58,541 nt of DNA. Source: Lyngbya confervoides BDU141951. Lineage in GTDB: Bacteria > Cyanobacteriota > Cyanobacteriia > Thermosynechococcales > Thermosynechococcaceae. Below the pieces are notes generated by a model. It was not told where the DNA came from. It ran no database searches and worked only from the letters and a program-made list of their open reading frames with translations. Shown piece after piece: positions 46,638 through 50,212 of the stretch (its first letter is position 1; the number at the start of each line of letters is the position of its first letter). Both the position numbers and the translations under genes were made by a program. The stretch is from contig NZ_JTHE03000037.1 in assembly GCF_000817775.3 (NCBI RefSeq), forward strand, positions 1 through 58,541. The letters run 5' to 3'.

Positions 46638-46759
46638 AGACACCCCGTTTAGCACAACTTTCTTGATCCTAGCCCACGACACTTCGGGCAGACAGCCTGG
46701 GGCTTATCGGCGGCAAACCCGTGGCTAGCGTCTCGATTATCCTATCAGGTCTCAAAAAA

Positions 46760-46820
46760 ACAAATTTCCGTTAAATTTTTGACAAAGCTGTACCCAAAAT
46801 GACAAACTTGCGTTAAATTT
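46760..46820 (+). repeat. Two 19-bp direct repeats 42 bp apart
   Basis: ACAAATTTCCGTTAAATTT (46760-46778) and ACAAACTTGCGTTAAATTT (46802-46820), 17 of 19 identical, spaced by four helical turns. A third partial element TGACAAA lies between them at 46780-46786 and recurs at 46800-46806. The second repeat covers the predicted -35 box. Confidence 0.85.
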
Positions 46821-46835
46821 ATTTCCGTGTACAAT
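46808..46835 (+). promoter_or_regulatory. Predicted promoter of the exported-protein cluster
   Basis: TTGCGT (46808-46813), 16-base spacer, TACAAT (46830-46835). The -35 hexamer is inside the second 19-bp repeat. Confidence 0.5.
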
Positions 46836-47092
46836 TTATTTTGATACGCAACGCAACAGCATTCAGCCAGGCTAGCGGGGGAAACAATCACGCCTAATTT
46901 GTCCCTTGAGGGACAAAAACGGGGTGACGCTTGGCCTAACTTTCAAGATTAATGACAGCGCGATTTCGGCGAGGCTAGCGGCATCATTGAATGCTGCTGG
47001 ATTGTCAGAACTGGTTCATCACATACAGAGCCAGGTCTGGTTTTCGCACGAGATTTTTGTCCGACTCAAGCAAAGATCATTCAAGGTGAGAT

Positions 47093-47518
47093 ATGAATAC
47101 CGCTCGTTTAGTTAAAATTGCCTCTCTCTCGACGTTGTTTGCCGGTGCTCTGACCCTGCCTGCTCTGGCGGGGAGCACCTATGTTGAGAATGACTACAGT
47201 ATTCGGAATATCTACAAAGGTCGCAACACGACCAATGTGAATATTGATACTAACTATAAATTTGATCGCCACGCGGTATCCAAATCCACGAAGGACGGAA
47301 CCACCTGGACTGAAACCAAGCAAAAGTCTAGTGGACATGTAGACGGCCTATGGCAAGAGCAATCCTTCCGGGAAGTGGATGATTTTGAGATCTCTGCAAC
47401 GAGCAAGTCCACAGAGACGGGCTGGGGAAGCACCAAGGAAAAAGTCCGGGTTCACGATACCTATAACTACAACGGCATTGATAAGACCCACCGCGTGACT
47501 TCTGGATTTGACTTCTAG
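47093..47518 (+). CDS. Exported Thr/Ser/Lys-rich protein, unknown (cluster protein A)
   Basis: 141 residues. Signal peptide MNTARLVKIASLSTLFAGAL then TLPALA, cleaved before GSTY. The mature ~117 residues have no Cys and alternate polar and aromatic residues as in beta structure (VNIDTNYKFDRHAVSKSTKD, SATSKSTETGWGSTKEKVRV), ending HDTYNYNG ... SGFDF. The DTYxY signature and aromatic end recur in the protein at 48.7 kb. A ribosome-binding site AAGGTGAG precedes the ATG and a strong hairpin follows the gene. It is the first gene after the twin repeats. I do not recognise the family. Confidence 0.72.
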   Translation: MNTARLVKIASLSTLFAGALTLPALAGSTYVENDYSIRNIYKGRNTTNVNIDTNYKFDRHAVSKSTKDGTTWTETKQKSSGHVDGLWQEQSFREVDDFEISATSKSTETGWGSTKEKVRVHDTYNYNGIDKTHRVTSGFDF

Positions 47519-47832
47519 ATTGTGACTGTGTGGCCTTAAAAGGGGGCGACCGCTCCCTTTTAAGGTCTCCATATAAGGTTTCTATCTGAATCCTTGGTCT
47601 GTGCAGAAGACGTTTGTACGTTGATAGCGCCGGAAAGGAGGTGGCTCAATCTCTAACCTCCTCCCCCCTCTCTTTATCTCCCCCTATCCCTCACTTGAAG
47701 ATTGGGCTGTCATTGCAGCCTCTTGTGGAATCTGCTGCGCTCCAGGGAAAGTTTTTTCTCACGAAAGTCTTGTCGCGGGAGACAGTGACAGTTCCAGTTG
47801 ATTCCAGTTCGCTCAAATCACCCGTGAAAACC
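47519..47832 (+). other. Gap between cluster genes A and B
   Basis: 314 bases. Besides the hairpin at 47534-47565 there is a second inverted repeat AGGAGGT/ACCTCCT (47636-47642 and 47656-47662). An open frame in phase with gene B extends back to a TTG at 47614, but the signal peptide starts at 47833, so it is treated as untranslated. Confidence 0.5.
47534..47565 (+). terminator. Strong hairpin after cluster gene A
   Basis: A perfect 11-bp stem (CCTTAAAAGGG at 47534-47544, CCCTTTTAAGG at 47555-47565), 15 bases after the stop. The T-run is within the stem, so it may terminate or protect the A message and separate it from the genes below. Confidence 0.6.
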
Positions 47833-48615
47833 ATGAATATTCGGATTGCCATCCCGACTGCTCTGGGGATCTGTAGCTTAGTGGCCTACGGAGCCAATGC
47901 TCAGACGACCAACAATATCAGTGCGCCTAATAATGCACAATCCACAGCGAATCCCGTGGTGGATCTCAATCAGAATGGCGCTCTGGTGAATACACAAGTC
48001 AATAACAATCCTCTGGGGCGCAGCGTTGTCGGAAACGGAGTGGCTGACTGTAGTTCCTCCGGGATTGCGCTCTCAGTTTTCGGGAATGGGGTGGGTCCCT
48101 TTGACACCGGGAGTATTGGGGGAGCGTTTACCTACACGCAGTCCTTTGGAATGGAAACCTGTCAAAACTATGCGAAGTCTCAGCTGGCCAAGTCAAACTT
48201 AGAGACTTGTCTGATGATCATTAGTAATTATTCCAAAATTTCTAAGGCAGGCATTCAAATTAGTTATCAAGATCTGCAGCGCGTCGCGGGGGTCAACTGT
48301 CCCCGAGTGGTTCTGCCCGCAACTTCCCTGCCAGAGAACCAGTCCTACGCTCCTGGCCCCGAGGATCCGGCGGCCTATCCGCCTCCGGGGCCGTCAAATG
48401 CCGGATCCGCTGCCTACAGCGCTCCCCAATATGGCGCTCCCCAATATGGCGCCCCGCCTCAATCGCAACTGCCCGTTGCCTATCCACCCGCTACTCCCGG
48501 TTATGCCCCCCAACCTCCCCTGCAGCCCCAATCAACGGGCTATAGCGGTGGGGGTCCCCAAGCTCAGCAACAGCGTCAGTCTGATCCGGTGTATCATTCA
48601 CGATCTCAACGGTAA
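47833..48615 (+). CDS. Exported protein with four Cys and Pro/Tyr/Gln-rich tail (cluster protein B)
   Basis: 260 residues. Signal peptide MNIRIAIPTALGICSLVAYG then ANA, cleaved before QTTNN. The mature part begins with an Asn-rich stretch, then a compact domain (about 75-160) with four Cys (VADCSSSG, METCQNY, LETCLMI, VNCPRV) that could form two disulfides. From residue ~165 it is low-complexity: Pro, Tyr, Gln, Ala and Ser, with YSAPQYGAPQYGAPP from a perfect 15-bp tandem duplication. Such tails often serve cell-surface or matrix contact. Start ATG 47833 lacks a good ribosome-binding site. Family not recognised. Confidence 0.7.
   Translation: MNIRIAIPTALGICSLVAYGANAQTTNNISAPNNAQSTANPVVDLNQNGALVNTQVNNNPLGRSVVGNGVADCSSSGIALSVFGNGVGPFDTGSIGGAFTYTQSFGMETCQNYAKSQLAKSNLETCLMIISNYSKISKAGIQISYQDLQRVAGVNCPRVVLPATSLPENQSYAPGPEDPAAYPPPGPSNAGSAAYSAPQYGAPQYGAPPQSQLPVAYPPATPGYAPQPPLQPQSTGYSGGGPQAQQQRQSDPVYHSRSQR
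48421..48450. repeat. Perfect 15-bp tandem duplication in cluster gene B
   Basis: GCTCCCCAATATGGC at 48421-48435 and 48436-48450, in frame (APQYG twice). Confidence 0.9.
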
Positions 48616-48641
48616 GTTGATGGGGTTAGCACCTTGGTTGC

Positions 48642-48682
48642 TTGCCATACAGGTTGGCTAGCTAAGGTTTGCCATACAGGTT
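48642..48682 (+). repeat. Two 14-bp direct repeats upstream of cluster gene C
   Basis: TTGCCATACAGGTT at 48642-48655 and again, identical, at 48669-48682; 27 bp apart. They fill the gap between genes B and C. Confidence 0.85.
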
Positions 48683-48706
48683 CAGGTCCTTCCCAGGATA
48701 ATCACG

Positions 48707-49114
48707 ATGTTTAATGTCAGTACTTGTTTAAGGTGTCCTGCGCTTCCCCTCGGGGTTTCTGTGGGGCTGATGCTGATTCACGGACCGATGGCGATGGCCC
48801 AGATCTTTCCTTCCCAGGTGGTGACCTTTACGGTGGGGGGGCATGGGACTGCGGAAACCTCGCGCGTGCGTCGGGAGAGGAGTGTGGAACGGCCCTTTTC
48901 GTTTTCGCTGTCCACGGACAATCAGCAGATTCAAGAGCGTCGCAGGGCGGAGGAAGATGGGCTGCAAATCCAGGAGGAGTCTAACTTTAGCTACGAGAGT
49001 TACAGCTTTATCCAGGAGAAGGGAAAGCAAGTTGAAACGAAGGTGCAGCGAACCTATGATACTTACAGCTATTCTGAATTTTCTGTGAACCAGTCGTTCT
49101 CGGTGGATTATTGA
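48707..49114 (+). CDS. Exported Ser/Tyr/Glu-rich protein (cluster protein C)
   Basis: 135 residues. Signal peptide (about 1-33, CPALPLGVSVGLMLIHGPMA then MAQ). The mature part is charged and aromatic: RVRRERSVERPFSFSLSTDN, EESNFSYESYSFIQEKGKQV, and it ends QRTYDTYSYSEFSVNQSFSV-DY. The DTYSYS segment near the C-terminus and the terminal aromatic residue repeat the pattern of cluster protein A (DTYNYN ... FDF), which suggests the two are distant paralogues. No Cys in the mature part. Family not recognised. Confidence 0.68.
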   Translation: MFNVSTCLRCPALPLGVSVGLMLIHGPMAMAQIFPSQVVTFTVGGHGTAETSRVRRERSVERPFSFSLSTDNQQIQERRRAEEDGLQIQEESNFSYESYSFIQEKGKQVETKVQRTYDTYSYSEFSVNQSFSVDY

Positions 49115-49165
49115 ATCGTCCAGATGTTCGATAGCCGATCAGTGCAGCAAAAGGACCCTCAACTC

Positions 49166-49471
49166 GTGAAGCATACCCCACTGACCACGTTGATTGCCGG
49201 CGTACTGAGTGTTGCTGGGATGCCGTTGATGCTTCAAGGGGCGGCGACGGCGGTGCCGCTGTTTTTTCAGCCCTTTGAATTTACCCTGGGCGATCGCTTC
49301 TTTACCCCGTTTGCCTACTACTCAGCTGATAGCGACTTCAGGGTTCCAGGTTATTATCATCAGCCGATTTTGCTGATCAAGTCCCAGGACTACTACTTTG
49401 CTACCAAGTCCTTTGAGTATGAAGGCGAAACCTTTGCGGTATTCGAGTATGGAACGGACTATGAATTTTAA
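49166..49471 (+). CDS. Small exported aromatic-rich protein (cluster protein D)
   Basis: 101 residues from GTG 49166, preceded by AAAGGA ten bases upstream; an ATG at 49124 would add 14 residues but has no such site. Signal peptide KHTPLTTLIAGVLSVAGMPL then MLQGAATA. The mature ~72 residues have very high Phe/Tyr content (FFQPFEFTLGDRFFTPFAYY, QDYYFATKSFEYEGETFAVF) and end EYGTDYEF. There is no Cys and little Lys. Its TAA overlaps an ATG (TAATG) at the head of the next frame. Function unknown. Confidence 0.62.
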   Translation: MKHTPLTTLIAGVLSVAGMPLMLQGAATAVPLFFQPFEFTLGDRFFTPFAYYSADSDFRVPGYYHQPILLIKSQDYYFATKSFEYEGETFAVFEYGTDYEF

Positions 49472-49492
49472 TGCGGACTTTGCGGGGTGAGA

Positions 49493-49520
49493 TCTTTGAC
49501 TGGGTATCTTTGACTGGGTA
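49493..49520. repeat. Perfect 14-bp tandem duplication before cluster gene E
   Basis: TCTTTGACTGGGTA at 49493-49506 and 49507-49520, ending seven bases before the preferred ATG of gene E. Removing one copy would put the upstream ATG (49471) out of frame, which supports 49528 as the older start. Confidence 0.9.
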
Positions 49521-49527
49521 TAGAGCC

Positions 49528-50196
49528 ATGAAAAGCGTTGTCACCATCCTTCCAGCCCTCCTGGGGATTTTGATCCTGCCGCAGGCAGTCAAGGCCCAGG
49601 CACATCTGCTAATCCCGCTTGCACCAGCGGTTCCGGCTGAACCCGCTCCCAGGGCTGTGCCCAATCCAGCGGAGACTGTGGGCACCCGCCCAGGGCAATA
49701 TTCCGACAATCGTCTCCAACCCCCTGCCAGTAATGTGGAGGCTCTAACGGCAGAAAAGCGCTTCCATCACGTTGGGTTGGTGGATAGCATTAGTGGGGAT
49801 TACGTCACGATTCATGGGGAGGAAGGCGCAAGAACCACCCATACCTTTTCTCCTAAGCTGGCCACCATCCCTCAGCTCTCTCGCGGCATGTTGGTGTCCT
49901 ACAACCTGACCGGCAATCAAATCTCGGATCTGCAGGTTCCGGTGGTCAAGGAGGTTTTTGAGGGGGTGTTGATTGTGGTGGAAGAGGACGTGCTGGGACT
50001 GGTGTCAGCGGTGGGAGAACGCAAGCTGACCAAACTGCCCCGTGAGAAAATTGCCTCCCTGCGGCTTCTTCCTGGACAGGCGGTGAAGGTTGTTGAGTTT
50101 GAGGGAACCTCAATGAAGGTCATCTGTTCTCCGGGGACCCATGAAGCCCAGCCGATTAATTTGGGCGTTCTAACGGCCCCGCTTCAGAGCTATTAA
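49528..50196 (+). CDS. Exported protein with two beta modules (cluster protein E)
   Basis: 222 residues. Signal peptide MKSVVTILPALLGILILPQA then VKAQ. A Pro-rich linker leads to two related-looking modules: about 90-145 (HVGLVDSISGDYVTIHGEEG, LSRGMLVSYNLTGNQI) and about 150-205 (LGLVSAVGERKLTKLPREKI, LLPGQAVKVVEFEGTSMKVI). Each shows a G-x-V turn, two beta strands and a G-x-x-V strand, much like the exported protein at 15.7 kb. It is the last gene of the exported cluster and its stop lies in a 14-bp imperfect tandem duplication. An ATG at 49471 is an alternative start. Function unknown. Confidence 0.68.
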   Translation: MKSVVTILPALLGILILPQAVKAQAHLLIPLAPAVPAEPAPRAVPNPAETVGTRPGQYSDNRLQPPASNVEALTAEKRFHHVGLVDSISGDYVTIHGEEGARTTHTFSPKLATIPQLSRGMLVSYNLTGNQISDLQVPVVKEVFEGVLIVVEEDVLGLVSAVGERKLTKLPREKIASLRLLPGQAVKVVEFEGTSMKVICSPGTHEAQPINLGVLTAPLQSY

Positions 50197-50212
50197 ATCA
50201 GAGCGATTAAAC
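50185..50212. repeat. 14-bp tandem duplication over the stop of cluster gene E
   Basis: CAGAGCTATTAAAT (50185-50198) and CAGAGCGATTAAAC (50199-50212), 12 of 14 identical; the TAA at 50194-50196 is in the first copy. Confidence 0.8.

Follow-up and report, generated by a model that had tools for sequence, protein, structure and literature searches.

What kind of system do five consecutive genes for small exported proteins form in a cyanobacterium, and where else does it occur? The question is raised by a stretch of 58,541 nucleotides of Lyngbya confervoides BDU141951 (contig NZ_JTHE03000037.1; the whole stretch is called the window below), in which five plus-strand genes, A to E, lie in a row at 47093-50196. 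Earlier reading of the sequence alone (the initial annotation) had described them as exported proteins of no nameable family with a shared aromatic C-terminal pattern, and had proposed that they encode an extracellular matrix, fibre or coat. We find that the five genes are a conserved accessory cassette and not a chance neighbourhood, and that the four-cysteine core of B is, judged from profile comparisons, homologous to divergent B proteins of four further cyanobacterial families and via them to the phage families phrog_1755/848 (T4-GC 235). The elements of the cassette are as follows.

47093..47518, + strand: gene A, exported protein of 141 amino acids, Thr/Ser-rich, C-terminus SGFDF; relatives often have 1-3 copies
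47532..47567, + strand: strong RNA hairpin after A and ahead of B, 16-base-pair stem and 4-nucleotide loop; a hairpin is equally placed in relatives
47833..48615, + strand: gene B, exported protein of 260 amino acids, four-cysteine domain at about residues 60-165 and Pro/Tyr/Gln-rich tail; homologue of cyanophage phrog_1755/848 (T4-GC 235)
48707..49114, + strand: gene C, exported protein of 135 amino acids, paralogue of A, C-terminus FSVDY
49166..49471, + strand: gene D, small exported Phe/Tyr-rich protein; GTG start, frame open from an ATG at 49124
49528..50196, + strand: gene E, exported protein of 222 amino acids with two tandem beta modules (GLVxxI...); beside D or A in relatives, also alone

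Results

Conservation of the cassette in cyanobacteria

Whether the gene order is kept in other cyanobacteria had been left by the initial annotation as a point to check, and the linkage proved to be kept, so that the outcome named there as a refutation, genes unlinked in every other genome, did not arise. Of 58 related or class-level genomes, the window's own included, 8 have a match to A, 10 to B, 13 to E and 1 to D, and 3 have a match to C by single-sequence search; inspection of the loci showed more. The order A-B-C occurs at loci L019-L026, with A in 1-3 copies, and at L046, where E stands in front (E-A-B-C), and A-B occurs at L027. Most carriers are Acaryochloris, the others being further Thermosynechococcaceae, Petrachloros and a 'Limnothrix' metagenome bin with the order E-A-B-C, whose B is 72% identical to that of the window. 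C is followed by a second B-like gene at L020, L021, L023 and L024, and by a small Phe/Tyr-rich D-like gene at L019, L022, L025 and L026. In four Acaryochloris genomes (L038, L039, L040, L042) a D-like gene stands beside E at a site separate from A-B-C, and E homologues are also found alone. Mature D, which the initial annotation had correctly called Phe/Tyr-rich, is 31% Phe, Tyr and Trp; since its similarity to the D-like relatives is weak (phmmer E 0.02), it was assigned mainly by position and composition.

The wider search started from a weak match of the A/C profile, which led to a Nostoc-like genome (L116) with a four-cysteine protein ahead of two A-like proteins, so that B there precedes A; gene order thus varies in some bacteria. 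Three more genomes (G440, G177, G010) contain cassettes, as do two that are Synechococcus-like (L144, L145). The bacterial cassettes that were examined have no phage genes around them. As separate observations, the A-like genes at 3/3 Nostoc-like loci are followed by a gene for a small protein that matches DUF3862 weakly, at E 0.004 (L116 6263-6718, L114 6898-7350, L115 276-731), and in both Synechococcus-like genomes B is followed by two extra small exported proteins that contain cysteine (L144 2941-3795, L145 3176-4041).

Relationship of B to cyanophage proteins

The four cysteines of protein B that had been described lie within the folded part (C73, C110, C126, C156), and its Pro/Tyr/Gln tail was likewise confirmed. 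When the profile of its close family was aligned with that of the remote cyanobacterial B proteins, the match reached E 8e-10 and a score of 70.3, against at most 17.6 for column shuffles (n=60) and 25.7 for the reversed profile. The cysteine core alone, with the signal and the Asn/Gln region removed, aligned at E 3e-7 (probability 93%, score 41.2; shuffles, n=100, at most 19.4). The same core of the close family scored 31.1 (E 4e-5) against the phage proteins only, and that of the remote cyanobacterial proteins matched the phage proteins at E 1.4e-20. In hmmsearch of 1,273 open reading frames (ORFs) the close profile reached the B protein of phage S-CAM7 at 1.8e-6, and the remote profile, built without the close relatives, reached the close family from about 1e-6 and window B at 5e-4. 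Remote cyanobacterial B proteins match phrog_1755 at E 6e-12 and 5e-11, and phrog_848 is also matched. Close B, remote B and phage proteins all have four cysteines, of which three align and the third is displaced in the close family. The close profile had no match in a viral contig collection.

In phage S-SM2, genes 250, 249 and 248 are T4-GCs 237, 235 and 234, and as gene 249 is T4-GC 235, window B is the cellular counterpart of that protein. The cluster of T4-GCs 218/219/234/235/237 is described as mobile, was found in 15/16 T4-like cyanophage genomes and was considered to be clustered 'for functional reasons', with no function given (Sullivan et al. 2010, PMC3037559). The likeness extends to the layout, as GC 235 (SSM2_249) has the B core with four cysteines and comes after the small exported GC 237 (SSM2_250). 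However, the phage counterparts have diverged very far from window B, partners of the D or E type were not found, and the small partner is not clearly a homologue of A. In the literature searched, a limited open-access set, no paper was found that links the cassette to the phage cluster.

Phages that carry B include the T4-like S-SM2, S-RIM12 and S-CAM7, the T7-like P-SSP7, S-RIP2, P-RSP2 and P-GSP1, and Vibrio phages. All phages examined (8/8) have, directly upstream of B, a gene whose small product starts with a signal peptide (signal peptides of window and phage proteins were read by eye), and the layout of a small exported protein plus B is thus common to phages and cyanobacteria. The upstream gene of S-CAM7 is the best match of the A/C profile outside the family (E 0.0025), with the motif TYNGRSVT...ESFDF. 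Because homology of the phage small protein to A could not be demonstrated outside S-CAM7, the conserved element is B plus a fast-changing exported partner. The annotated phage B ORFs themselves are apparently over-extended at the N-terminus (L156 3236-4525, S-SM2 SSM2_249; L158 3236-4513, S-RIM12 HOQ65_gp087): about 90 residues there come from reading the preceding small exported gene in the wrong frame. Translation probably begins at the signal peptide ...YKYLYPVIGLLIASPVSAADV, and P-GSP1 PRQG_00030 has the same overlap.

Paralogy and properties of A and C

A carries DTYNYN...SGFDF and C carries DTYSYS...SVDY, and the suspicion that they are paralogues was borne out. The group profiles of the mature parts only aligned over 94 columns (hhalign E 9e-10, probability 96.5%), and cross-matches of full-length profiles reached E values down to 3e-16 (hmmsearch); A and C are true paralogues. 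In nearly all members of the family the final residue is F or Y after an H.V.SGF.F-like strand, while the A proteins of Nostoc-like genomes have the ending ...SAGVR. By homology, A and C alone have the aromatic C-terminal pattern in common, and it did not hold for the whole cluster: D too has an aromatic ending (YEF), but B and E are without it.

Both mature proteins are hydrophilic and Ser/Thr-rich. A has a grand average of hydropathy (GRAVY) of -1.17 and 24% Ser/Thr, and the best 19-residue GRAVY of its mature part is -0.61. The AlphaFold model of A is all-beta with two long strands forming one long hairpin, at a mean predicted local distance difference test score (pLDDT) of 68 and a predicted template modelling score (pTM) of 0.28. 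An internal repeat in A (GxsxTxVxVxExY, twice) scored 22.4 against 13.5 when shuffled, which is suggestive only, as it covers 17 columns with an optimised split. Foldseek matched the model of A to stems of pore-forming proteins and to phage tail parts, but at TM-scores of 0.2-0.3 these say merely 'a long hairpin', and a pore function is not claimed. Matches of the A profile in two other genomes (G349, G294; loci L083, L085) probably reflect the signal peptide and were left out of the count. These loci hold tandem near-identical small exported Gln/Asn/Ser-rich proteins (NVQTSGQVNTQVGDRNSS...) of curlin-like look, beyond the signal peptide unrelated to A as far as seen.

Hairpin, export signals and surroundings

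The hairpin after A, at 47532-47567, has a z-score of -6.2 against dinucleotide shuffles. In relatives, scored against mononucleotide shuffles, a GC-rich hairpin lies in 7/7 Acaryochloris A-B gaps (z -3.0 to -5.7) and one lies in the A-B gap of L046 (z -5.2), and L019 is without it (z -0.3); the B-C gaps give z-scores between +1.1 and -1.7, with no hairpin conserved after B. The hairpin after A is thus conserved in relatives. Like the relationship of B to cyanophage proteins, it was absent from the initial annotation.

All five ORFs are present as first described, each with a Sec-type N-terminal signal with an A-x-A-like end (ALA/G, ANA/Q, AMA/Q, ATA/V and VKA/Q, from A to E), and the predicted export of A-E through these Sec signals is well supported. 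Inspection of the signals by eye found no lipobox in any of the five. The intergenic gaps are 314 base pairs (bp) for A-B, 91 bp for B-C, 51 bp for C-D (counted from the GTG) and 56 bp for D-E, from which B-C-D-E could be a single transcript and A partly separate. Upstream of A, a stretch of 60 bp (46765-46825) has two copies each of GTTAAATTT and TGACAAA and may be a regulator site. The cassette is flanked by a short minus-strand ORF and, on the other side, by a minus-strand SufR-like regulator ORF followed by suf-type genes (named from translations).

None of A-E matched Pfam or NCBIfam above the family cut-off, and direct searches against PHROGs or PADLOC gave nothing above cut-off. That the proteins belong to no nameable family thus stands for Pfam and NCBIfam, but B belongs to a known, uncharacterised phage family. 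The A/C and B profiles had no credible match in a PDB sequence search, the cassette proteins had none in a plasmid collection, and Rfam had none across the cassette region.

Discussion

We tentatively propose that the cassette forms a surface or envelope structure, in which A and C are variable subunits, B is a disulphide-held partner and D and E are optional, a reading that is quite possible though short of probable. For surface location, assembly, stoichiometry, the roles of B, D and E and the function in phages we infer the following. The conserved core would be a pair, at least one fast-evolving Ser/Thr-rich beta-type small protein (A, C) and the four-cysteine B. Once exported through Sec, A and C may assemble via extended beta strands at the outer membrane or cell surface; their hydrophilic, Ser/Thr-rich mature parts argue against membrane barrels and fit a surface or periplasmic assembly. 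B, with its C-terminal domain held by disulphides, could use its flexible Asn/Gln-rich and Pro/Gln-rich parts to anchor the others or to help them assemble, with D and E as optional partners. A might be made in excess over B if the hairpin behind it stabilises the A message or stops most transcripts ahead of B. Cyanophages would probably use their B relative, together with a small exported protein of their own, to modify the surface or envelope of the cell they infect. The extracellular fibre or coat first suggested for the cluster remains a plausible guess.

Several points weigh against this proposal. The models are poor (A as given above; B, pLDDT 51.5 and pTM 0.27, with a single confident helix) and make a weak case for assembling beta strands, and no export or assembly gene lies within the cassette. 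Matches of the close B profile occur in 11/390 genomes of the class and, fragments aside, B is absent from most Thermosynechococcaceae and most other cyanobacteria. The link to phages depends on profiles and intermediates, as window B as a single sequence had no match in PHROGs at E 0.1, and, relative to the remote B proteins, the close family has its third cysteine displaced by about 11 residues, or three helical turns, towards the N-terminus. The small-protein slot of the phages is mostly without demonstrable homology to A, S-CAM7 alone showing it, marginally.

Curli, chaperone-usher pili, spanins and outer-membrane barrels were considered as known counterparts, and each fails a defining test. 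Curli (type VIII secretion, with CsgA/B, CsgG and CsgF) likewise consist of small exported Ser/Thr/Asn-rich subunits with partner proteins, and are also phage-borne, in marine pelagiphages (PMC9599517, PMC7029224), but the cassette has no curlin repeat (Pfam, E up to 1), CsgF or CsgG. The CsgG-domain genes of the genome lie on contigs C34 and C45 and the cassette on C58; CsgG is present in 9/9 Thermosynechococcaceae genomes with an intact cassette and also in cassette-free ones, and as it is unlinked and confounded by kinship, this was not used as evidence. Chaperone-usher pili share exported beta proteins with alternating C-terminal residues, but no chaperone or usher was recognised among the cassette genes or at the loci of relatives, and there was no pilin domain match.

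Among the alternatives, the pair could act at the interface of phage and host by masking or changing a receptor or the outer membrane and so excluding other phages, the bacterial copies being host versions of a superinfection-exclusion module. B homologues in many cyanophages and some Vibrio phages and their sporadic presence in hosts (9/47 genomes of one genus, one partial) speak for it, as do the fast evolution and duplication of A-slot proteins and the mobility of the cyanophage cluster. PADLOC, however, gave no match, and cyanopodoviruses have the genes in their late lysis and packaging region. We consider this explanation unlikely, if worth keeping in mind.

Another alternative makes the phage pair part of lysis or of the virion, either spanin-like or decorating the tail as a small component; the bacterial cassette would then be a domesticated copy. 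The pair follows a holin-like small membrane protein in P-SSP7, S-RIP2, P-RSP2 and P-GSP1, stands just ahead of terminase or HNH genes in P-SSP7, S-RIP2 and P-GSP1, and lies near tail or large structural genes in S-CAM7 and a Vibrio phage; the spanins Rz/Rz1 are likewise an exported-protein gene pair in the late region of T7-like phages. However, A and B have cleavable signals and neither a lipobox nor an inner-membrane or other transmembrane anchor beyond the signal, which does not fit two-component spanins, and B has a cysteine-rich domain. In S-SM2 and S-RIM12 the structural genes are distant from the pair, which has psbA or hsp20 as its neighbour, and the cellular copies examined lack surrounding phage genes. 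We regard this explanation as distinctly unlikely.

We give about the same small weight to the possibility that the five are ordinary proteins of the periplasm or of envelope maintenance that do not assemble together and are linked by co-regulation only. The solitary E homologues and the separation of D-E from A-B-C are in line with it, but the same types repeatedly re-associate, A and C are paralogues, A is duplicated in tandem, and the layout of a small exported protein plus B is kept down to phages. A placement of A and C in the outer membrane, as very small beta-barrels or as an oligomeric beta-barrel pore with C-terminal aromatic targeting and with B as periplasmic partner, is very unlikely, because the terminal F or Y of almost all A and C proteins and the hairpin model with its matches to oligomeric beta-pore stems and phage tail parts are countered by a mature A too hydrophilic for membrane strands, the absence of a barrel from the model, the low TM-scores and pTM, and the ...SAGVR ends of Nostoc-like A proteins.

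Returning to the proposed surface or envelope structure, a broader speculation, and an improbable one, is that cyanobacteria and phages share by exchange a so far unnamed two-component envelope module, made of a variable exported protein of beta type and a partner with four cysteines; as the surface layer that it builds would decide phage adsorption, the module could protect the host or let a phage exclude its rivals. The analysis covers five types of cyanobacterial protein that current databases leave unnamed. Profile evidence now ties a protein of the T4-like cyanophage cluster described in 2010 to a cassette of cellular genomes (Acaryochloris, Nostoc-like and Synechococcus-like), in which deletion, tagging and imaging are possible, and the cassette may represent a kind of system in which sets of exported genes are common to phages and their hosts.

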